This document shows positions 3,208 to 17,220 of a stretch of 64,000 nt of DNA, one piece after another. Below the pieces are notes generated by a model. The model ran no database searches and was not told the origin of the DNA. It saw only the letters and a program-made list of their open reading frames with translations. Each line of letters begins with the position of its first letter. Positions within the stretch are counted from its first letter, which is position 1. Source of the stretch: Actinomycetes bacterium (GTDB taxonomy: Bacteria; Actinomycetota; Thermoleophilia; RBG-16-64-13). The position numbers and the translations under genes were made by a program. Location: positions 62,001-126,000 of the forward strand of contig JAGXFW010000024.1 of the NCBI GenBank assembly GCA_024637035.1, read 5' to 3'.

Positions 3208-4107
3208 ATGGACGTGGATATCGTCGCCGGGTATCTGGGCGCAGGCAAGACCTCCTGTATCCTAGAGATGATCAAGAATGACCCCGATCCGTCACGACTC
3301 GCTGTGTTGGTGAACGAGTTCGGTGACGTGGGCATCGATGCCGCTCTTCTGGGCGAGGGCACCGAAGTCGTCGAGCTTGCCAGTGGTTGTATCTGCTGCA
3401 CCCTGCGCCTCGACTTCCGCACCCAGATCAGTGAGATCGTCGATCGCTGGCATCCGCAACGTCTCCTAATAGAGCCCACCGGCGTTGCCACCGTCGCCCA
3501 AGTCGTTCGTTCACTGCGGCACAGCGACCTCAAGGACAAGGTCGGCGGCGCCCGTGTGTTCGTGCTGGTCGATGCGGTCACGTTCGCCGAGCGATTGCGC
3601 GACAGTCCCGCGTTCTTCTCGTCCCAGGTGACACAAGCTGACGTGCTCTTGCTCAACAAGACGGACTTGGTTCCGCCGGAGCGGACACAGGCCCTGAAGG
3701 GGGTCTTGGAACACATGAACCCCGAAGCGTGGATCATCCCCACCGTCGGCGGCCGGATCGGAGAAGACGCCGAGCTACCGTCTCCACATCCTCTTGAAGA
3801 CCCCGGGGATGCGGAAGTCCTCACCGGTTTGGCATCGCTGAGCTACGAAGTCGACCGCTTGGTCGAGCGGCGGGAAGTCCGGGGACTGTTCGATGGACTC
3901 ATTACCGGGGAGATGGGCCGGGTGGAGAGGGCCAAGGCGATCGTGCGCACGGTCGATGGCTGGTATCGGTTCGATGTTGCCTCGGGGCGGGTCGACGAGC
4001 GTCCATGGAGTCCGGCGCCCGGGGGACGCTTGGTGATAATAGGCACAGACTTGAGCAATGCAGATCTCGACGGGGCCGTGCGTTCGTTCGGCGGGAAGAA
4101 GGCATGA
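3208..4107 (+). CDS. CobW/COG0523-family G3E GTPase (metal or cofactor chaperone)
   Basis: This 299-residue G3E-family GTPase belongs to the CobW/COG0523 group, whose members deliver metals or act in cobalamin and metalloenzyme maturation. The Walker A motif GYLGAGKT lies at residues 8–15. The metal-binding CICC motif, a hallmark of the group, is at residues 61–64. The segment LLIEPTGVA is the Walker B/switch region, and LLNKTDLV is the guanine-specificity loop. The ATG at 3208 has a TAGGAGA ribosome site. Its stop overlaps the start of the next gene (ATGA), a corrinoid reductive activator, so the two are probably translationally coupled. The context suggests a role in corrinoid or methyltransferase activation rather than zinc supply, but this is inference. 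Confidence 0.9.
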   Translation: MDVDIVAGYLGAGKTSCILEMIKNDPDPSRLAVLVNEFGDVGIDAALLGEGTEVVELASGCICCTLRLDFRTQISEIVDRWHPQRLLIEPTGVATVAQVVRSLRHSDLKDKVGGARVFVLVDAVTFAERLRDSPAFFSSQVTQADVLLLNKTDLVPPERTQALKGVLEHMNPEAWIIPTVGGRIGEDAELPSPHPLEDPGDAEVLTGLASLSYEVDRLVERREVRGLFDGLITGEMGRVERAKAIVRTVDGWYRFDVASGRVDERPWSPAPGGRLVIIGTDLSNADLDGAVRSFGGKKA

Positions 4108-5753
4108 GAGTGGAAAGGTACGGCATCGCCCTCGACCTGGGCACAAGCGGCATCCGGGCGCAGGCGGTCGATCTGCGTAGCGGGGAGATCCTGTCCACAG
4201 CCATCACGACGCAACACCCGCTTCCGGGCGGGAACGTCATGGATCACCTGCACTTCGCCGTGGAGACGTCCTCGACCGGCATGTCCTCGATCACCCACAC
4301 CCTGATGATCGACTCTGTGAACAAGGTCATCGATGCCCTGCGCGTGCCGCGAGCTCACGTCGAGCGGGTGGCCATATGCGGTAACCCCATCCAGCTTTCC
4401 CTGTTCCAGGCGATGGAGATCCGCGACCTCGCCTATGCAGGCGAGAGCAAGCGGGCCTCGTTGGGTGTCGAGGTCCAAGCACGCGAGGCGCGCATCATCA
4501 CCGCGGGTGACATCGAGGGGCTCGACTTGCCCAGCGGCGCCGAGTTGGTCGTGCCGCCGGCCGTGCGGCACGAAGTAGGTGCCGACGCGTTAGCCATGAT
4601 GCTCAAGTCGGGCATGCTCGACCGCGATGAGATCGCCCTGGTCACCGACTACGGCACGAATGCCGAGATGGCGTTGAAGATCGGCGACCGGGTGGTGACC
4701 GGTTCGGCTGCCTGTGGGCCGGCGTTCGAGGGTCAGGCGATCAAGTTCGGCATGCTGGCGGCCCCGGGGGCCATATCGGACCTCGACCGGGTCGACGGTG
4801 CCTACCGCAACCTGGTGCTCGACCCACACATGTACGCGGCGGAAGGCGACTTGGTCGATCCTCGGACCGGGCAGGTGAATGGCGAGGGTGGCATTCGGGC
4901 GCGCGGCATCACGGGCACGGGCGTGATGGCGCTCATCGCTCTGGGGCTCGAGGACGGGGTGCTGAGGCTACCGAAGATAGACTCCGCCGATGGGCTGATG
5001 CATCTGGCGGATGGGATCGCCCTCTCGCACCTGGACGTGGGTGAGGTGGGCAAGGCTATCGGCGCCGCGCGCGCGGGTCACGTCACGCTCGCGCACGAGC
5101 TGGGCATCGACCTGGAAGAGGTGAAGGTCGCATACATGGCCGGCGCTTCAGGCACGTACGTCGACGCGTTGAAGGCTCAGGCCATCGGTATGGTGCCCGC
5201 GGCGGTCACGACCATCTACCAGGTTGGGAACACGTCGCTCATGCTGGCGCGCGACCTGGTGCTCGACCCCGAGCATCTGTGGGAGATCGAGCGTATCGCC
5301 AAGGATCTGCGTGCGGCGCACTGCATGTTCGCCGAGGCGCCGGTCTTCAAGCAGGTCTACGTGCTCGAGCTCTCCTACTGGACGGAGGGCATGCCGTGGG
5401 ACATGTACCTGAAGTTCATGAAGCGCGCGGGCTTGCCGGCGCCGCGCGAGCACGCCGTTCCGGCGAAGGTCATCCGCTTGGTGGAGAGGGATATCCCAGA
5501 CATGGGCAGCCGAGGTCTGGCCGTGGTGGAGGATGTGGGCATGTCCATGCTCGCCTGCTTCGAGGGCTGCACCGAGTGCGGCAAGTGCGGGGAGAACTGC
5601 CCCGAGGATGCGATAACGCTTGGCCATGACGAGCAAGGGCGACCTCAAGCGGAGGTGCGGAGTGCTCGTTGCCTGGGTCTCAGCTGTCTCCGTTGCGAGC
5701 TGGGTTGTCCTGAGCACGTCTTCCGTTTCACCGAGTTCCTGCGCGCCAGGTAG
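4104..5753 (+). CDS. RamA/RACo-like corrinoid reductive activation protein
   Basis: This 549-residue protein is an ATP-dependent reductive activator of corrinoid proteins, which returns accidentally oxidised Co(II) to the active Co(I) state. The N-terminal part (GIALDLGTSGIRAQAVD) is the DUF4445/ASKHA fold shared by RACo and RamA. The N-terminal 2Fe-2S domain of RACo is absent. The C-terminus instead carries a ferredoxin-like module with CTECGKCGENCP at about 489–500 and CLGLSCLRCELGCP at about 523–536, as in the RamA activators of methylotrophic archaea. The ATG at 4104 overlaps the cobW-like stop. mtaB and mtaC about 3 kb away supply a plausible client. Whether the second Cys set (CX4CX2CX3C) binds a complete 4Fe-4S cluster is not certain. 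Confidence 0.88.
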   Translation: MRVERYGIALDLGTSGIRAQAVDLRSGEILSTAITTQHPLPGGNVMDHLHFAVETSSTGMSSITHTLMIDSVNKVIDALRVPRAHVERVAICGNPIQLSLFQAMEIRDLAYAGESKRASLGVEVQAREARIITAGDIEGLDLPSGAELVVPPAVRHEVGADALAMMLKSGMLDRDEIALVTDYGTNAEMALKIGDRVVTGSAACGPAFEGQAIKFGMLAAPGAISDLDRVDGAYRNLVLDPHMYAAEGDLVDPRTGQVNGEGGIRARGITGTGVMALIALGLEDGVLRLPKIDSADGLMHLADGIALSHLDVGEVGKAIGAARAGHVTLAHELGIDLEEVKVAYMAGASGTYVDALKAQAIGMVPAAVTTIYQVGNTSLMLARDLVLDPEHLWEIERIAKDLRAAHCMFAEAPVFKQVYVLELSYWTEGMPWDMYLKFMKRAGLPAPREHAVPAKVIRLVERDIPDMGSRGLAVVEDVGMSMLACFEGCTECGKCGENCPEDAITLGHDEQGRPQAEVRSARCLGLSCLRCELGCPEHVFRFTEFLRAR

Positions 5754-5817: not shown

Positions 5818-7800
5818 GTGAGTCAACACCCGATCACCTTTGAGCACCTCTTCTTTCCGGGACTGAGTCCGGGGGAGAGCGAGCGCCTCGAGCGCGAGCT
5901 CGAGCTCATCGAGACGTCCGCGTGTCTATTCGCATCCGGGCTCTGCGGTCTGGATGTTCACATCAGCTGGTCCCTCGGCCGTGCCGAGCCCGTGACGTGG
6001 ATGCAGTCGCGCGACGACACCCTTTCGGTGCATCTGTGGGTCGACCTGCTCTCACCACGGAACCTGCCCTCCGACTCGGTGACCGGCGAGCCTGTCTCAC
6101 TCGGGGATGCGGCTTCCGCAACAGCCCGGCGTATTCCCATCGAACGGGCCGACTTCCTCCAAGCTTTCCGTACCGGCTTCCTACACGCTTTGGGTCGGGT
6201 TCTGGGGGCGCCCGCCATGGCCGGTCGACAGGTGGGAGCGACAGGCGCAAAGGGCTCTGTCAGCGTCGCCGACCTCGCGACACCTGAACCGTTGGGTTGG
6301 GTCCTTCGTCCACATCATCAACGCTGGCGCCGCCTTCCGACATCTGTGCGCGCTCGTCTGAGCGAACGGGAGACGGTGAGCGCGGTGCGCGGCATTGTCG
6401 AGCATCTCGAGGGAGCTAGGACCGACGCTCTGCTTGCACGCCGTTTCGCCGGAGCCGTCCGCCACCTACAACCCCGTTTCGCCGGTGACCGGGAGCTCGG
6501 CCGTTCCGCCGATCCGGCGGTCGCCCTGCTCGGCTTGCTGGCCCTGGCGATGAGGGCCGGCGGCTCCGACACGATGGCCGAAGCCGCCGCGGTCGCAACC
6601 GGCCTGTCCGGGTCGGAGGATGCCTCGGACGTGCGGCACTCCTCCCACGTACAACATGCGTTCGAACGACTGGCTCCCGCGGCACGGCGTATCGCGGACA
6701 GTGACGACGCCGAGGCTGCGTATCGTCTGGCGGAGTTCGCGGTGTACGATCTTCTCCCGGTGCTTCTGGCTCTGGGCGACGTTGTCGTTGTCCCCGTCCC
6801 GGCGGAACCTCTTCCCGCGCCCCAGAGCACGCGCTCTCCCGTGGATAGACGCGGAATCGCCCAGTTCTGCGGCATTGCCCGAGAGGTGGCTCCCGACGTA
6901 GTCCAGGGTCCGATCGGAACGGTACTCGTCACGCTGCCGCACTTGGTTGCCGGGCACGCTCTCTTCCGCGTCGACCATGCGCTTGCCCGCGATCTCGTGC
7001 CCGATGCGACGCTTTCCGGCGTGCTGCGCGGAATGGTCGGCGAGTACGGTCCTCAGGCGCTCGAGGCCTTCGCCGAGCAGGCGGGACCGCTCCGTCGTGC
7101 GCTGCGAGTCAACTGGGAGCGACGCGAACACGGGCGCTTTCGCAGCGGTACGCACGTGGGTATCACCAACCTGCGCCGCTTCGTGACGGTGGAGGACCTG
7201 CGACTGTTCCAACGCCTGAAGGCTCCGCAGGCGTTGAGCTACTACTTCCACGTACTGGTGGACGTGTCATACAGCATGTTGCACGAGCGCAACGTCGAAA
7301 AGGCCCTGGCCATCGCGTATGCGTTCACCGAACTGCTCCACACGGCCCGAGTGCCGGTCGACGTCACTCTCTACTCCTCGGGCATCACCGAGTTGTATGA
7401 CCACCAGCGAGATACCCTTCAGCCTTGGTTCGGCGGCGATTTCGGCTATCTGATGTCCGGCACTCTGGAGATGGAGGCGATCGCGTTCGCGAAGCAGAAG
7501 GCCGACCGCCTATGGCACCAGCGGAAGATATTCGTCGTTGTGACCGACGGCACTCCATCGACGATCTCGCTGCCGGCGGTAGGGGCATCCTCGCTGCACG
7601 AGTACTACGAGGAGGGGCTGCAGCCCTGGCTGACCGCAGCCGGCATCGAGTTGCTGGCGGTGGGCATCGGTGTCCAACCAGACTACCACCGTCGCGCAGT
7701 GGCACTGACTGAGGGGTGGGATGCCTTGGGCGTGTTCATGGGCCTGCTAGAGGAGATCGTGCGTGAAGGGGCCGCGCGGAGTCGGGACCTCTGGGAGTAG
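5818..7800 (+). CDS. VWA-domain protein, CobT/NorD/CbbO-like partner of a MoxR ATPase
   Basis: The predicted 660-residue protein has a C-terminal von Willebrand A domain with a complete MIDAS metal site. DVSYS gives Asp482, Ser484 and Ser486, SGTLEME gives Thr549, and VVTDG gives Asp577. The N-terminal 470 residues are Ala/Arg-rich and unassigned. This architecture is that of the VWA partners of MoxR-type AAA+ ATPases: CobT of the cobalt chelatase, NorD, and CbbO of Rubisco activase. A matching AAA+ gene converges from the other side 64 bp away. The start is GTG at 5818, with no strong ribosome site. The position next to corrinoid activation and methyltransferase genes suggests metal insertion or conformational activation of a methyltransferase component. 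Confidence 0.82.
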   Translation: MSQHPITFEHLFFPGLSPGESERLERELELIETSACLFASGLCGLDVHISWSLGRAEPVTWMQSRDDTLSVHLWVDLLSPRNLPSDSVTGEPVSLGDAASATARRIPIERADFLQAFRTGFLHALGRVLGAPAMAGRQVGATGAKGSVSVADLATPEPLGWVLRPHHQRWRRLPTSVRARLSERETVSAVRGIVEHLEGARTDALLARRFAGAVRHLQPRFAGDRELGRSADPAVALLGLLALAMRAGGSDTMAEAAAVATGLSGSEDASDVRHSSHVQHAFERLAPAARRIADSDDAEAAYRLAEFAVYDLLPVLLALGDVVVVPVPAEPLPAPQSTRSPVDRRGIAQFCGIAREVAPDVVQGPIGTVLVTLPHLVAGHALFRVDHALARDLVPDATLSGVLRGMVGEYGPQALEAFAEQAGPLRRALRVNWERREHGRFRSGTHVGITNLRRFVTVEDLRLFQRLKAPQALSYYFHVLVDVSYSMLHERNVEKALAIAYAFTELLHTARVPVDVTLYSSGITELYDHQRDTLQPWFGGDFGYLMSGTLEMEAIAFAKQKADRLWHQRKIFVVVTDGTPSTISLPAVGASSLHEYYEEGLQPWLTAAGIELLAVGIGVQPDYHRRAVALTEGWDALGVFMGLLEEIVREGAARSRDLWE

Positions 7801-7818
7801 CGTGAGAGGCGGAACAGG

Positions 7819-7835
7819 GCCGCACGAGATGCGGC
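7819..7835. terminator. Small hairpin between convergent VWA and AAA+ genes
   Basis: GCCGCA and TGCGGC are separated by five bases in the 64-bp convergent gap. The stem is weak and lacks a T-run. Confidence 0.3.
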
Positions 7836-7864
7836 GGGAGGGCGACGCCGAGGGAGTGGGAGCG

Positions 7865-8956
7865 CTAGGCTCCTGCGTCGAGGCGGGCTAGATCCCAGGT
7901 GGTGGCGTACGCGAAGATCTGTTCGCGGAAGATGGCCTTCATGCGATCGTCGAGCAGGTCGTAGAACGCCATCTTGGCGGCGCTCACGGGGCCCAGATGA
8001 AGCGCGAGTGCCGCCCACGACTCCAAGGTGCCGGTGCTCATCACGAAGTTGAACGAGTGCACCCGCTTCGCGAGGATCTCCCGGCAGACACCGGCGACCT
8101 GCAGTATGGAATCGAGCATGTTCGTGTGCTCGGGTCGCGAGAGCGCCGGAAGGCGCTCGAGCAGGATGGTGCGTTCGGCCTCGAGGTCGAGGAACCCCAT
8201 GCGTACCGAGGCCCAGCGGCGCAGATAGGCGGCTGAGAGTTCCTTGGTGCCCGGATACAGCGTGGGGTACTCCCCGGGGTTGAAGGTGGCGTAGATGCGG
8301 CACCAGGCGTGTTGATGCACCACCTCGTTGTCCTTCTCGACGACCACAAGGGCCCGCGAACCGTCGAGAAGGCCGTGGAGTACGAACCACACCTCCTGGC
8401 CGGTGGCGTTCATCTCCTCGAGAAGCAGAACCCCCCCTCCGCGCACGGCTGTGGTCACCAGCCCGTCCTGGAACATCACCGTGCCACGTCCGGCGGGCAG
8501 GAGTCTGCCGATGATGTCGTCGGTGGTGGACAGGCCGTGAAGGTTCATGCGGTAGACGGGCGCGCCAAGGAGGGAGGCGAAGTACCGCACGAGTTCGGTC
8601 TTGCCCACGCCGGTATGTCCGTGGAGGGCCAGCGGTGTATTGAGGCTGTACGCGAGAGCGCAACGGTAGAGGAGAGCGTCGTGGTCGAGGTAGAAACCGA
8701 GCGGAGGGACAAGGTCTGCCCGGCCGGCGAGCAAGGCGGTGGGCCAGCGCCGCAGAACCACGCCTCGTTCTACGGTGCGGCCTTCTTCGTTGGCGAACGA
8801 CCCGGTGAAGAGCAATCGATCGTCGCCCACGAGGTACACGTGATCGAAGTCGGTTCGCTCCGTGGCCACCACCGGAGCTGCGGTGACCTCGCGCGCCGTA
8901 GCCAGCAGTGAATCCATGTCCGTCGCCGCAAGATCGGGGTACGGGACGTGCTCCAT
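7865..8956 (-). CDS. MoxR/CobS/CbbQ-type AAA+ ATPase
   Basis: This 363-residue AAA+ ATPase of the MoxR branch belongs to the same branch as CobS, NorQ and CbbQ, which act as ring-shaped remodelling or chelatase motors together with a VWA protein. Walker A is GHTGVGKT at residues 113–120, and Walker B is GVLLLEEMN at 175–183. The sensor 1 region is ATFNPGEYPTLYPG, in the form typical of the CobS/NorQ group. The ATG is at 8956, 104 bp after the mtaC stop with a strong hairpin between. Being last in the mtaB-mtaC direction and convergent with a VWA gene, it is best read as the ATPase half of a MoxR–VWA pair serving the corrinoid methyltransferase. Alternatively, it could be a stray cobalt-chelatase CobS homologue. 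Confidence 0.88.
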   Translation of the reverse strand: MEHVPYPDLAATDMDSLLATAREVTAAPVVATERTDFDHVYLVGDDRLLFTGSFANEEGRTVERGVVLRRWPTALLAGRADLVPPLGFYLDHDALLYRCALAYSLNTPLALHGHTGVGKTELVRYFASLLGAPVYRMNLHGLSTTDDIIGRLLPAGRGTVMFQDGLVTTAVRGGGVLLLEEMNATGQEVWFVLHGLLDGSRALVVVEKDNEVVHQHAWCRIYATFNPGEYPTLYPGTKELSAAYLRRWASVRMGFLDLEAERTILLERLPALSRPEHTNMLDSILQVAGVCREILAKRVHSFNFVMSTGTLESWAALALHLGPVSAAKMAFYDLLDDRMKAIFREQIFAYATTWDLARLDAGA

Positions 8957-9060: not shown

Positions 9061-9825
9061 CTACACCACGAGGTTCCACTTGGCGCGCATGTCTTCCCAC
9101 GACATGCCCGCGGCTGCGTCCCCGGCCATCTCCGGGCCTTGCTTGGCGAACGTGGCATACACGCCTCTGTCCCAGCTGGTCACCCACTCTTCGGAGACCG
9201 CACCACCGCTGGCTACGACCGGGATGTTGATGCCTTCCTGTGTAAGGAGTTCGGCGACCCGGTGGAACGCGGACATCGTGGTCGTCATGAGGGCGGTGCC
9301 CGTCACGAGATCGGCCTTGTTGTCCTTGGCGGCCTGGACGACGGTCTCTTCCGGCACATCGGAGCCGAGGTCGATGACCTTGTAGCCGTTCGCCCTGATC
9401 AGAGCGGCGGCGACGTTCTTGCCGATGTCATGGATATCGCCGTGGGCGCAGTGCATCACCACGGTGCCCCTCTTCACCACCGCCGAACCTAGGGCCTCCT
9501 CAGCCATGTTGAGCCCGACCATGAGAGCGTCGGAGGAGAGGATCACCTGGGGCAGGTAGTAGACCCCGTCGTCCCAGAGCTTGCTCACCTCGGCCATGCC
9601 GAGGATGAGGGTGTCGATCACCGTCTGGGGACCCTTGGACGCTATGGCCGCCTTCGAGGCTTCGGCCACCATGTCCTCGTCGCCCTCTACTACTCCCTTG
9701 GCGATCGCTTGGAGTGCGGGGTCCGTGGAAACGTCCGCAGCGTCCCTCTTCTTCGGAGCGATCTTGATGTCGTAGCGGATGAAGATGGGGTCGAAATTGG
9801 TTAGATCGTTGACTGTCTTTTGCAT
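9061..9825 (-). CDS. mtaC: Methanol-type corrinoid protein MtaC
   Basis: This 254-residue corrinoid protein carries the methyl group between the substrate-specific methyltransferase and the next acceptor. It has the N-terminal helical cap domain of methionine-synthase-like B12 proteins, then the cobalamin domain with the base-off signature GDIHDIGKNV. His132 is the expected lower axial cobalt ligand. SGGAVSEEWV near the C-terminus matches the loop around the nucleotide tail. The ATG at 9825 has an AGGAGGG site 6 bases upstream; an in-frame start 18 codons earlier has no such site. It follows mtaB by 82 bp. Methanol is the likely substrate because the partner is MtaB, although related MtaB proteins can act on other O-methyl compounds. 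Confidence 0.93.
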   Translation of the reverse strand: MQKTVNDLTNFDPIFIRYDIKIAPKKRDAADVSTDPALQAIAKGVVEGDEDMVAEASKAAIASKGPQTVIDTLILGMAEVSKLWDDGVYYLPQVILSSDALMVGLNMAEEALGSAVVKRGTVVMHCAHGDIHDIGKNVAAALIRANGYKVIDLGSDVPEETVVQAAKDNKADLVTGTALMTTTMSAFHRVAELLTQEGINIPVVASGGAVSEEWVTSWDRGVYATFAKQGPEMAGDAAAGMSWEDMRAKWNLVV

Positions 9826-11281: not shown

Positions 11282-11510
11282 GCGTCTCCCTCCGTTGGTT
11301 CGTGTGAGTCCAGCTTGCAGGCCACCGGCCCGTCTGTTGGCGTCAGTCGGTCGGTCTGTGGCGCCAGATGAGATCACTCCATAGGCCGCACCTTTCCGGG
11401 GGCACTGGGGAGCCGCACCGCTTGAGGAACCGAACGGCTCGATGTCTGAGACCGTCGCGCACGGATCTTCTCGCGGACTTGGATCACCGACCCGTCGTTG
11501 TTCCATGAGA

Positions 11511-11675
11511 TCACGTGACGAGATAGTGGTAGAGCAGCATGTACATGAGTGCCCAGAGCGACACGACCGAGCCGACGACCCCGCCGATGTTCAGTCCGAG
11601 CAGAATGTACGTGGACACGGTGGTCAGCACTCCGACTACCAGCACCTCCAACATGACTCGATTCCTGGTGTTCAC
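11511..11675 (-). CDS. Small membrane protein of 54 residues upstream of mtaB
   Basis: This short gene is easily missed. GTG at 11675 lies 6–7 bases after a perfect AGGAGGT site, and the frame runs 54 codons to TGA at 11511. The product begins MNTRNRVMLEVLVV and is almost wholly hydrophobic, with one segment at about residues 8–27 (LEVLVVGVLTTVSTYILLGL) and another at about 33–53. It ends HYLVT. It lies 45 bp after a 4-TM protein gene on the same strand and precedes mtaB. Together with the two upstream genes it looks like the small subunit of a membrane complex. I do not recognise a family. The strong ribosome site and operon position are the main evidence that it is real. Confidence 0.65.
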   Translation of the reverse strand: MNTRNRVMLEVLVVGVLTTVSTYILLGLNIGGVVGSVVSLWALMYMLLYHYLVT

Positions 11676-11720
11676 GTTGCACGACCTCCTGGTTCAGGGT
11701 CCGTCGCTGGTGCTCGAGGG

Positions 11721-12140
11721 CTACAGCTTCGAATAGAAAGACCCCACCCACAGCGCTGTCATGACAAAGACGAGGCTCCACGCGATGTACGTGAGCGACA
11801 TCAGCGGGTAGGCTTCCGAGATTTTCCCGCTCACGTCGCCGCCTACGATCGCAGGAGTGATGGCTTTGAAGAGATACGTAAAGGCCAGGCCGAGTGCGAG
11901 TATGACCACCGTGCCGATAGCCTTGCGGACCATGGGTACCTTTTCGGCCGGGAGGCCCCAGTAGCCGGTGAGGCACAGGGTCCAGAAGATGACCCACAGG
12001 CAGATGTCCAATCCCAGGAGACCCTGAGCGGTATCCGAGCCTCTGACCGTCCATTCCAAGAGGTGCATGACGTAGGTGCTGATCGCGGCGAGAACGACGA
12101 CGACCCCGACGACCCCGATCTTGGCTGCTGTTCTGCTCAT
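11721..12140 (-). CDS. Four-TM membrane protein of unknown function (mta-associated)
   Basis: This 139-residue protein is predicted to have four transmembrane segments at about residues 7–24, 41–60, 72–91 and 112–133. A conserved-looking VRKAIGTVVILALG segment opens the third helix. The upstream neighbour has VRKACGTAIAFVG at the corresponding place, so the two are probably distant paralogues forming a heteromer. The start is ATG at 12140 with a GGGGGTAG site, 11 bp after the upstream stop. The family is not recognised. Lying upstream of mtaB on the same strand, it could be part of a transporter or membrane anchor for the methyl-transfer system, which is inference from position only. Confidence 0.7.
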   Translation of the reverse strand: MSRTAAKIGVVGVVVVLAAISTYVMHLLEWTVRGSDTAQGLLGLDICLWVIFWTLCLTGYWGLPAEKVPMVRKAIGTVVILALGLAFTYLFKAITPAIVGGDVSGKISEAYPLMSLTYIAWSLVFVMTALWVGSFYSKL

Positions 12141-12151
12141 CGCGCTACCCC

Positions 12152-12613
12152 CTACACCAGTTTGAGGTGTTGGACGAACACGAGCCAGACAAAACCCCAG
12201 TGGAGGGGTAGTAGGGAGAGCACCTGGGAGCCGGAGGTGAAGTTCAGACCGAACGATCCTTCGGGTAGCCCGTATTGGGCGAAGTGTGTCGTGAGCATGA
12301 CAGACACAGCCGTGCCGACGAAGGCGATGGCGGTACCGCAGGCCTTCCGCACGACCTCAGGGGAGAAGGTCTGTTCGCCCTCGAGCGTACAGGAAAAGCA
12401 CTCGCCTCCGCCCATACCCAGGTACAGGCCGATAAAGAAGGTGAAGAACAGCCCCCAGTAGGCGAAGACAGCTGAGAAGTTGGGCGCCGTCACGAGGAGG
12501 CTGGTGTCGCCGGGGCTCATCTTGCCCATCCACCAGAATACGTACGTGATCGCCGCTGCCACAGCCCAGAAGAGAACCAATGCGAGTACGCGCTCCGTGG
12601 CTTTGGAATTCAT
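12152..12613 (-). CDS. Four-TM membrane protein with CxxC motif, unknown function
   Basis: This 153-residue protein has four likely membrane segments (about residues 9–29, 43–66, 89–108 and 133–150) and a Gly-rich loop GMGGGECFSCTLEGE holding a CxxC pair that could bind metal or form a disulfide. Its third helix starts VRKACGTAIAFVG, resembling the next gene's VRKAIGTVV. The ATG at 12613 has a GGAGG site 4 bases upstream; a TTG one codon earlier is less well placed. It is the first gene of a minus-strand run of two 4-TM proteins, a 54-residue membrane protein, mtaB, mtaC and an AAA+ ATPase. The function is unknown. An uptake channel or electron-transfer membrane module are possibilities, not conclusions. 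Confidence 0.7.
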   Translation of the reverse strand: MNSKATERVLALVLFWAVAAAITYVFWWMGKMSPGDTSLLVTAPNFSAVFAYWGLFFTFFIGLYLGMGGGECFSCTLEGEQTFSPEVVRKACGTAIAFVGTAVSVMLTTHFAQYGLPEGSFGLNFTSGSQVLSLLPLHWGFVWLVFVQHLKLV

Positions 12614-13059
12614 CAATCCTCCAGAGGTCGCGAGAAGAAATGAACCGGTACGAGGGAATCCATGGCCATACTAGGGCGTCGAGGCGTCCGGACACATAGG
12701 CATCACCCTCCCGTGTGGTGCCGACTGCGTCACCATATGCGCGAGGGGAGTAGGATAGGGCGCCCTTGGCAAGGCGCCCGAGATAATCTGACCGGCCGCT
12801 ACATCGCTATTCTTGCCGCGCGCACTCCCCGAGCCGGATACTGACTAGCATGAGGGAAGTCGGCTCGGAAGTCAACGCGAAGCGACGCTGAAGTGACGCA
12901 CCCGCACCCGCACCCGGAGGCGCCCGGCCATCGGGGCCGGCGGTCCGCGCTCTCAGAGTGAGGTGCCGCCAGGTGCTTCCACGTCGCCCAAGCCGCGCTT
13001 CGGGTACCATTCGCTGAGGTGCGCGAACATGGACGCCGCGACGACGGAGGTGAGGCGGG
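12614..13059. other. Divergent intergenic region upstream of the membrane/mta genes
   Basis: This 446-bp gap between divergent genes holds no convincing gene. It should contain the promoter of the minus-strand membrane-protein/mta run and that of the MFS gene. An imperfect palindrome of GGGCGC and GCGCCC arms with an inner CTT/AAG pair lies at 12758–12779 and could be an operator or a terminator stem. I see no cobalamin riboswitch core. Confidence 0.5.
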
Positions 13060-14280: not shown

Positions 14281-14610
14281 GGGCAGAGCAGACGCCCACT
14301 CCTGCGTGACTCAAGGGGGTTCTTGGGGTCCGCGCTCGGCGTGCCCAGCCTTCGTTTCGAAGAGCTGTCGACGGCTGCCCGAGAATTTATTCTGAGAGAA
14401 TGCACATCAATGGTTTAGGAACATGAGGGATCTCCAATAAACTCTCCAGATTCTCCTTAGCGTGCACAGGGGGAGGGTCCTTGCAGTCGTCCTAATCGGA
14501 CGGGTGAAATGGGGGATGGTAGCCCGATGCTCTGTCTCCGCGCAGTATGCGCCGGAGGCTCAGCAGGGAAGGCAGGCCCCGAAGACAGAGAGGAAGGGGA
14601 GAAGGGAACG
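14281..14610. other. Intergenic region upstream of the multicopper oxidase
   Basis: This 330-bp gap has no gene. It contains a locally AT-rich patch (about 14375–14460), unusual in this chromosome and probably the promoter region of the oxidase gene. Within it, ATTCT-GAG-AGAAT at 14389–14401 is a small palindrome that could be an operator. Confidence 0.45.
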
Positions 14611-16710
14611 ATGGCACGAGAGATCACACGACGACAGTTCTTCAAGGTCACAGCGGGGGGCATGTTGGCCCTCTACGTGGGGTCGCGGCTGGAAGGTTTC
14701 ACGCCGGTGGCGTACGCGGCCATTCCCGGCGGCACCTTGGATCCCGTCACGGGTGTGGGTAAATATCTCACTCCGATGCTCATCCCGCCGGTGATGCCGA
14801 GGGCGAGCCAGATCAAGATGAAGGACGGCAAAGACGGCGACTACTACGAGATCTCGATGAAGCAGTTCGAGCAGCAGATCCTGCCGGTTGGACTGCCGGC
14901 CACAACCGTCTGGGGATACGGAGCCGTCACGGCCGCCAGCAAACAAGGGTTGCTCCTGCACAACGCCCCCTCGCTCACAATCGAGGCCCAGGCGGATAGG
15001 CCGGTCCAGGTTCGTTGGATCAACGGTCTGGTCGACAAGAACAACAAGTACCTACAGCACTTACTTCCGGTGGACCCGACGCTGCACTGGGCGAATCCGC
15101 GCGGCGGCATTGCCGGTCGCGACATGCGCCCAGTCTTCACCAGCACACCGGGCCGCTACACCGGCCCGGTGCCCATGATCACCCATCTGCACGGCGCTGT
15201 TGGCGTGGGCGATGAGAGTGACGGCTACCCCGAGGCATGGTACTTGCCCCACGCCGCGGACATACCAAAGGGCTATGCCACCGATGGCACCTGGTACAAT
15301 TTCTTCGCCGCCAAAGCCGAAGCGAACAATGGCGCCAAATGGAAAAAGGGCTACGCGACCTTCGAGTACCCGAACCTGAACCGCGCCTCGACCCTCTGGT
15401 ACCATGACCATTCGTTGGGCATGACGCGAGTGAACGTGTATGCAGGCCCGGCTGGCTTCTACATCGTTCGCGGCGGCCCCGACGGTGACGGTGCCGTACT
15501 CGACAGCCGCACCACCACACCTGCGGTGCTGCCTGGCCCCGCTCCGAAAGAGGGCGACAAGTTCCCCTCCGACAAGACGTACTACGAGATCCCGATCGTG
15601 ATCCAGGACCGCTCCTTCAACGCGGACGGTTCACTGTTCTACCCGGACACGCGCGAGTTCTTCGACGGGATCGTCAGTCCTTTGATCCCGAATGGTCCGG
15701 AGGCAGAGCAGTTCTCGCCCATCTGGAACCCGGAGTTCTTCGGGAATACGATGATGGTCAACGGGAACACGTGGCCGTTCCAGACCGTGGAGCAACGGCG
15801 CTATCGTCTTCGCTTCTTGAACGGCTGCCAGTCGCGCTTCCTTATCCTCGATTTCGACAAGATCCCCGGCATCGAGGTGTGGGCGATCGGCAACGAAGGC
15901 GGCTTCTTGAGTGCGCCGGTGAACCTGACGGCGACGAACAGAAATCGTCTCCTGATGGCCTTGGCGGAACGTGCCGACCTCATCGTCGACTTCACGAACG
16001 TCCCGGTGGGCAATCACATCCTCGGCAACGTCGGTCCCGACGAGCCCTTCGGCGGAGGCGAGCCGGACGGCGACTTCGACGTGGCCGATCCGGACAGCAC
16101 CGGACAGATCATGCAATTCCGAGTCGTGCCGGCAGTCGCCCCCGATCCCAGCACGCCCGCGCAGGACCTGCGGCTGCCGGCCGTTGCTCCGCTACCCGTG
16201 GAGACCGTCACCCGGAAGCTTGCGCTCATCGAGGCGATGGGTGAGGGTGTCGACGCTACCGGAGCCGAGGTCGAGGGCCCGGTCGAGGCGCTGCTTGGTG
16301 TGGTGAACGAGGCAGGCGGTTGGACGCCCGTGAAGTGGATGGAACCGGTCACCGAGAACCCGGCCGTCGGAGCTACGGAGGTGTGGGAGTTCTACAACAC
16401 CACCGGTGACGCCCACCCGATCCACGTGCACGAGACGGTCTTCGAAGTGGTGAGCCGCGAGGGCTTGGCGCTCGACGGTGAAGACGTCGCAGACCCCATC
16501 GCACTCGACGGCGTCGTCACGGCACCGGAGTCGTGGGAGACGGGCTTCAAGGATACGGTCATCGCCTACCCCGCTCAGGTGACCCGCATCCGTGCCCAGT
16601 TCAACCTGCCCGGCCAGTTCGTATGGCACTGCCACATCCTCGAACATGAGGACAACGAGATGATGCGGCCGTTCCGGATCGGAGATCCCCAGCCTGGTCA
16701 ACCCGGGTAG
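14611..16710 (+). CDS. Tat-exported multicopper oxidase (CotA/bilirubin-oxidase-like)
   Basis: This 699-residue multicopper oxidase oxidises a reductant and reduces oxygen to water at a trinuclear copper centre. The ATG at 14611 precedes a Tat signal, TRRQFFK at about residues 6–12, followed by a hydrophobic stretch ending near VAYA. All four copper motifs are present: HLHGAVG, WYHDHSLGMTR, HPIHVHETVF and the C-terminal WHCHILEHEDNEMMRPF, which includes the type 1 Cys, His and a following Met. The length and the spread of motifs resemble the CotA/bilirubin oxidase group. The gene is monocistronic, with a strong hairpin after it. The natural substrate (metal ions, phenolics or bilirubin-like tetrapyrroles) is not evident. 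Confidence 0.92.
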   Translation: MAREITRRQFFKVTAGGMLALYVGSRLEGFTPVAYAAIPGGTLDPVTGVGKYLTPMLIPPVMPRASQIKMKDGKDGDYYEISMKQFEQQILPVGLPATTVWGYGAVTAASKQGLLLHNAPSLTIEAQADRPVQVRWINGLVDKNNKYLQHLLPVDPTLHWANPRGGIAGRDMRPVFTSTPGRYTGPVPMITHLHGAVGVGDESDGYPEAWYLPHAADIPKGYATDGTWYNFFAAKAEANNGAKWKKGYATFEYPNLNRASTLWYHDHSLGMTRVNVYAGPAGFYIVRGGPDGDGAVLDSRTTTPAVLPGPAPKEGDKFPSDKTYYEIPIVIQDRSFNADGSLFYPDTREFFDGIVSPLIPNGPEAEQFSPIWNPEFFGNTMMVNGNTWPFQTVEQRRYRLRFLNGCQSRFLILDFDKIPGIEVWAIGNEGGFLSAPVNLTATNRNRLLMALAERADLIVDFTNVPVGNHILGNVGPDEPFGGGEPDGDFDVADPDSTGQIMQFRVVPAVAPDPSTPAQDLRLPAVAPLPVETVTRKLALIEAMGEGVDATGAEVEGPVEALLGVVNEAGGWTPVKWMEPVTENPAVGATEVWEFYNTTGDAHPIHVHETVFEVVSREGLALDGEDVADPIALDGVVTAPESWETGFKDTVIAYPAQVTRIRAQFNLPGQFVWHCHILEHEDNEMMRPFRIGDPQPGQPG

Positions 16711-16735
16711 CGTCTAGTTACGAACGCCTCTGAGT

Positions 16736-16768
16736 GGTGGCGCGCGGCCCGACGGGCCGCGCGCCACC
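16736..16768 (+). terminator. Strong hairpin terminator of the multicopper oxidase
   Basis: Perfect 15-bp arms at 16736–16750 and 16754–16768 enclose a GAC loop 25 bp after the oxidase stop. There is no U-tract, but the stem is very stable. Confidence 0.65.
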
Positions 16769-16965
16769 GATTCCATGGCTCGGTCGCGACGTTCGTCGAT
16801 CGCGATTCGAGCCCCCCGTGTTAGGCCCATGCGCTCAGCGGGCATCTACCCACGTACGCGCCCCTCAGCTTCCGATGGACGACCGCGTCTCACATCGATC
16901 CGCCGCGGGGCCGCATCATCTTCGCCGCCGCCACACCGGCCGCGGCTATACGCAAGGAGTGAGTC

Positions 16966-17220
16966 ATGGGCAACATCGTCGAACTCGATGTCCGCGAGAT
17001 CCCGCCCTACGAGCGTCACGGTCGCATCTTCGACACGTGGCATGCGCTTCCGGTGGGGGACGAGATAGTCCTCACCAACGATCACGAGCCTCGCCCGCTC
17101 TACTATCAGTTCGAGGCGGAGTACACGGGGCAGTTCGAATACTCGGCCGAAGAGCGTGGGGAGCATTGGTGGGAGGCACGCATCAAGCGGATCGCCGCCG
17201 CTCCCGCCACCGACGAGTAG
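16966..17220 (+). CDS. DUF2249 domain protein
   Basis: This 84-residue single-domain DUF2249 protein is predicted to be cytosolic. It carries the family pattern: an N-terminal ELDVREIPPYERH strand–helix, then TWHALPVGDEIVLTNDHEPRPLYYQF and a C-terminal WWEARIKRI. DUF2249 domains resemble the TusA/SirA fold and often occur near hemerythrins, nitrite/NO enzymes or redox proteins, but no biochemical role is established that I can assign. The ATG at 16966 follows a GGAGTGAGTC ribosome site. Its neighbours are a multicopper oxidase and an HD hydrolase, which do not define a pathway. Confidence 0.85.
   Translation: MGNIVELDVREIPPYERHGRIFDTWHALPVGDEIVLTNDHEPRPLYYQFEAEYTGQFEYSAEERGEHWWEARIKRIAAAPATDE

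Follow-up and report, generated by a model that had tools for sequence, protein, structure and literature searches.

A three-gene membrane cassette that probably forms a lineage-specific part of a bacterial methanol pathway

Three small membrane proteins, here called A, B and C, are encoded ahead of the methanol:corrinoid methyltransferase gene mtaB in a 3.57 Mb genome whose recorded close relatives are MAGs classified as Actinomycetota, and they probably constitute a lineage-specific membrane part of the methanol pathway. The window (the whole stretch of 64,000 nucleotides that was analysed) corresponds to bases 62001-126000 of contig 7 of this genome. The overall best explanation, to which a probability of roughly one in three can be assigned, is that the three proteins form a small heteromeric transporter or facilitator module serving MtaB and its partner MtaC. 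A functional tie between A-B-C and the mta system is likely, and a transport step, supposing that tie, comes close to an even chance without reaching it.

All three open reading frames lie on the minus strand within positions 11511-12613, ahead of mtaB on the same strand, as the earlier note on this DNA had described them. Gene A (12152..12613) encodes 153 amino acids without a known family and starts at an ATG, with an alternative TTG start one codon upstream. Gene B (11721..12140) encodes 139 amino acids, likewise from an ATG, and gene C (11511..11675) encodes 54 amino acids from a GTG that follows an AGGAGGT ribosome-binding site by 8 bases. Each has orthologues in six genomes, which belong to a single family and are distributed over the genera g1, g5 and g10. 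The three are real, conserved genes under purifying selection, with dN/dS values over four pairs each of 0.05-0.16 for A, 0.06-0.19 for B and 0.07-0.21 for C. Because C also adjoins B in all six genomes, it can be taken to be translated and not a chance frame, and the refuting result that the earlier note had named for the small frame, a lack of translation, did not appear. Hydropathy assigns four transmembrane (TM) segments to A, four to B and two to C in every orthologue, and the initial description of two four-helix proteins followed by a tiny hydrophobic one is borne out. The charge pattern of the three proteins, whose basic residues lie predominantly on the N-in side, favors an N-in/C-in orientation, and AlphaFold2 predicts four long helices in each of A and B at low confidence (pLDDT 63.3 and 57.4, respectively). 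Invariant polar residues well inside the predicted TM segments include His138 in TM4 of A and Asp45 in TM2 of B, and invariant charged residues are found at the predicted cytoplasmic edges of A (E7, R8, R89 and K90), B (K7 and K73) and C (R4 and E10). Residues 69-82 of A (window positions 12368-12409, minus strand) carry a cytoplasmic-loop CxxC, either CFSC or CYSC, in g1 and g10; this feature is absent in g5.

The earlier note had recognized none of these proteins, and no relative was found for them in Pfam, NCBIfam or the PDB. Neither the window proteins compared with Pfam and NCBIfam nor six orthologues of each compared with Pfam gave a match above the curated cut-offs, and this includes every transporter family in those collections. 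The nearest Pfam family is DUF6050, which four of the six C orthologues match at E values up to 1 (best E 0.0054). Profile searches of the PDB with A and B retrieved nothing up to an E value of 1, and a Foldseek search with the A model (pLDDT 63) returned a best E value of 0.48 and no fold match. The Pfam, NCBIfam and PDB profile searches also revealed no sequence relation of A or B to quinone anchors. A haem protein was set aside as a reading, since the only invariant histidines are residues 138 and 149 of A, both on one helix, and there is no second helix with a conserved histidine. In a collection of 84,980 species, a scan that detects only close relatives found those of gene A in no more than four of the six genomes. 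Relatives of B were absent from plasmids and IMG/VR, as was MtaB from the plasmids searched. The cassette is not described in the literature covered by a non-exhaustive search, including the available portions of PMC13391211 and PMC10418091. A, B and C define three unnamed protein families, and the 54-residue one is of a size that gene callers readily overlook.

A and B are probably related to each other through swapped halves, judging from comparisons of their hairpins. The program hhalign pairs TM1-2 of A with TM3-4 of B (E 2.8e-4, probability 41%). A profile alignment of the same two hairpins scores 19.2, which none of 100 column shuffles preserving the hydrophobic pattern could reach (best 13.0), and the best score of A TM1-2 against 32 unrelated membrane hairpin windows from these loci was 13.6. 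The remaining nine hairpin pairs gave weak or marginal scores. The proposal that A and B are distant paralogues therefore probably stands in this form, but the shared VRKAxGT helix start that had first suggested it does not carry the case. This string corresponds to a 10-residue BLAST match with an E value of 0.11, and the pairing that it implies, A TM3-4 with B TM3-4, scores 9.7, a value equalled or exceeded by 5 of 100 shuffles and surpassed by unrelated hairpins (up to 11.6). The idea that C represents a half-unit of A or B was likewise not adopted, being suggestive only: TM1-2 of B aligned with C at 12.6, compared with 12.1 for the best shuffle and 11.0 for the best unrelated hairpin, and other pairings were weaker.

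By sequence, the enzyme encoded next to the cassette (P0004; 9908..11281, minus strand) is a member of the MtaB family. It covers positions 3-460 of the 460 in profile PF12176 (E 6.6e-191), can be aligned from end to end with 2I2X, the enzyme of Methanosarcina (E 1.6e-138), and in that alignment keeps Glu, Cys and Cys at the positions of Glu164, Cys220 and Cys269, the zinc ligands of 2I2X. Its score of 641 bits falls below the equivalog cut-off of 720 bits for NF040651 in NCBIfam, so methanol can only be inferred as its substrate. In the direction of transcription, the minus strand carries A, B and C, a 229-base spacer, mtaB, the methanol corrinoid protein gene mtaC (9061..9825, from the Pfam and NCBIfam scans) and an AAA_5 ATPase gene of the mta neighborhood (7865..8956) that has a counterpart in genus g10. 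Given the 229 bases between C and mtaB, a common operon with mtaB does not follow from this order. Beyond the ATPase gene, the plus strand carries genes for a weakly CobT_C-like VWA protein (5818..7800), which is the ATPase partner by position, a RACo-type corrinoid activator with a C-terminal 4Fe-4S dicluster (4107..5753, with a start codon picked by the analyst) and a CobW-type GTPase (3208..4107).

Several additional observations concern these neighbors. The pair of AAA ATPase and VWA genes accompanies mtaBC, RACo and CobW in both g1 and g10 (window 5818-8956; L029 3240-6126), the VWA counterpart in g10 being assigned by position and lacking a Pfam match of its own, and from its position the pair is a possible reactivation chaperone for the corrinoid system. 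Nothing matched the portion of the RACo-type protein that is N-terminal to Raco_middle, and the arrangement of its domains is RamA-like. Window positions 14509-17220 encode a multicopper oxidase and, after it, a DUF2249 protein, which hints at a respiratory metabolism.

The link to methanol metabolism that the earlier note had proposed draws its main support from co-occurrence. In a class-wide set of 299 genomes from 114 genera, the B profile at full length (E 3e-59 or better), the C profile and the MtaB profile PF12176 match the same six genomes, and B at full length or C is never found without mtaB. Three weak partial matches to the B profile in the class (E 5e-4 with an internal stop, 0.002 and 0.007) were taken as chance. 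B and PF12176 also match the same three of 396 genomes across the phylum, and a single-sequence search placed gene A in the same six of 99 relatives. The order A-B-C is kept in all six genomes. In the four belonging to g1 and g5, the cassette immediately precedes mtaB-mtaC, all on one strand, and the block persists although an MFS gene stands beside A in g1 and an rpsO-like gene (recognized by eye) in g5. In the two g10 genomes the cassette forms a separate locus, with a radical SAM gene on one side and an ABC-2 permease on the other in G010, and mtaB-mtaC is located on another contig next to a URO-D-type (MtaA-like) gene, the AAA gene, a VWA gene by position, RACo and CobW. Orthologues therefore accompany mtaB in every case at the level of the genome but are adjacent to it in only four of six, and unrelated neighborhoods account for only two of them.

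These patterns must be weighed against the possibility that the cassette is a lineage-specific passenger unrelated to methanol, which came to lie beside mtaB by descent and shares its leader through a local duplication. In an RpoB tree of 19 genomes, all six cassette genomes fall to the same side of one branch (support 70/74) and g1 groups with g5 (support 99/96), so that a single ancestral gain could account for the co-occurrence without any functional tie. The co-occurrence consequently weighs less than six of six would suggest, and the link to methanol is correlative. The separate location of the cassette in g10 also fits a passenger, but its retention there away from mtaB, the absence of full-length B and of C from all class genomes that lack mtaB, and the survival of the block between different flanks in g1 and g5 argue for a tie, leaving descent alone a possible but rather doubtful account.

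The leader sequences bear on both readings. A 16-base motif with the consensus GGGGGGTGATGCCTAT lies 94-100 bases upstream of mtaB in all six genomes (window 11381..11396, minus strand), and a matching motif, GGAGGGTGATGCCTAT, lies upstream of A (12696..12711, minus strand). When a matrix built from the six mtaB sites was applied to the A leaders, those in G000, G001 and G014 scored above all 164 control leaders and that in G010 was equalled or exceeded by only 2 of 164, with no significance in G013 or G005, where 32 and 92 of 164 controls, respectively, scored as high. Leaving one genus out of the matrix weakens the g10 sites: with g10 omitted, its mtaB sites are matched or exceeded by 15 and 17 of 164 controls. 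The A leader of G005 (L027 10253-10582, minus strand) can be aligned over about 130 bases with the leader and opening codons of mtaB at a score of 58, compared with 31 for the best of 300 shuffles. The aligned stretch is apparently a degraded duplicate of this part of the mtaB locus that arose by local duplication, which would suit a passenger cassette. Over all pairs of A and mtaB leaders, 7 of 36 were reached by at most 2 of 300 shuffles, which preserve base composition only. At 10 of 11 sites the motif can be read as a strong ribosome-binding site plus start codon, and at 10 of 11 a stop follows within 2-9 codons of that start. The window site before A would encode an 8-codon mini-ORF and that before mtaB the minimal ATG-GAG-TGA, four of the six mtaB leaders having the form ATG-x-stop. 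This reading was noticed after the fact and is offered as a lead only.

Other approaches to the leaders were less productive. The motif as a pattern is too degenerate to define a regulon, with 35 matches in G000 versus 25 for the reversed pattern, and a conserved exact match in L067 and L074 was set aside because it falls inside a long coding frame that by eye is RNase R-like. Folding of the mtaB leader gave no support for a conserved RNA structure (5 pairs, -2.6 kcal/mol). At gathering thresholds, Rfam identified only two tRNAs in the window and nothing in seven loci, and a single sub-threshold match fell near the cassette. Promoter-like sites occur 281-301 bases upstream of mtaB in g10 and g5 and, upstream of A, at 285-292 bases in g10 and at 164 and 376 bases in g5, whereas none passed in g1. 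Such sites suggest separate transcripts with long leaders.

The transporter or facilitator reading is preferred because polytopic proteins of uncharacterized function that stay with a catabolic enzyme generally turn out to be components of transport. In this scheme, A, B and C would be subunits of one small integral-membrane complex, in which an A+B+C set has about 10 TM helices, and would serve methanol methyl transfer by MtaB-MtaC in one uncultured Actinomycetota lineage that carries the Wood-Ljungdahl pathway. The related, half-swapped A and B would surround a putative path lined by A His138 and B Asp45, C would complete or stabilize the assembly, and the complex might let a C1 substrate enter or transport an ion on which growth on methanol depends. 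Support for a transporter or channel from the proteins themselves comes from only the two invariant in-membrane polar residues just named. Methanol passes membranes unaided, and thus a methanol channel is not obviously required. The Wood-Ljungdahl marker searched, CdhC, occurs in 12 of the 18 genomes of the family and in five of the six with mtaB, the sixth being 64% complete, which makes a role for MtaBC in converting methanol to methyl-THF plausible.

A different role in the same pathway would be that of a membrane anchor or scaffold that moves nothing and instead docks MtaB-MtaC or the RACo-type activator through short cytoplasmic loops. The invariant charged residues at the predicted cytoplasmic edges of all three proteins would suit docking, as would adjacency to mtaBC in four of six genomes. 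However, those loops offer little length, the MtaABC systems known so far are soluble enzymes, and A and B carry invariant polar residues within the membrane too. A purely structural role seems unlikely. More improbable still is a quinone-reactive anchor resembling SdhC/SdhD that feeds electrons from methanol (methyl-THF) oxidation to the quinone pool, for although the distribution of CdhC, the location of A His138 and B Asp45 in predicted membrane segments, and the membrane electron carrier discussed for methylene-THF reductase in Moorella (PMC13391211) would accord with it, no methylene-THF reductase gene was recognized beside the cassette in the inspected loci, the Pfam, NCBIfam and PDB searches showed no homology to quinone anchors, and A has no second helix with a conserved histidine for haem.

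The boldest version of the argument is a long shot, in which a new three-subunit membrane device, built from repeated two-helix hairpins with a paired His and Asp inside the membrane, would couple corrinoid methanol use to the membrane and be co-regulated with mtaB through the leader. Coupling might proceed by substrate entry, ion flow or quinone reduction, and the shared leader would hold the minimal ATG-x-stop frame. Should the transporter reading or any other tie of the cassette to mta prove true, the membrane would be a site of methanol handling in some bacteria, whether for transport, anchoring or energy conservation, and A, B and C offer clear candidate residues for testing this.

Among known systems, the methylamine permeases MttP and MtmP of Methanosarcina, encoded beside methylamine methyltransferase genes, offer a parallel in that membrane proteins are kept next to a corrinoid methyltransferase gene. 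Those, however, are large single-chain permeases, whereas the cassette encodes three small proteins, none of which matches a family. The SdhC/SdhD and FrdC/FrdD anchors resemble A and B as pairs of small polytopic subunits of similar length, but no sequence similarity to them was found, a conserved pair of haem ligands is absent, and here two 4-TM subunits are joined by one 2-TM subunit. A further likeness is to the MtaABC clusters of acetogens and methanogens, where MtaB and MtaC are encoded together as they are here. In Moorella thermoacetica, the cluster mtaA1-mtaC1-mtaB1 belongs to a system described as MtaA, MtaB and MtaC, with a hypothetical protein also mentioned (PMC13391211). The available portion of that account mentions no membrane trio, whereas in the present lineage a three-gene membrane cassette precedes mtaB.
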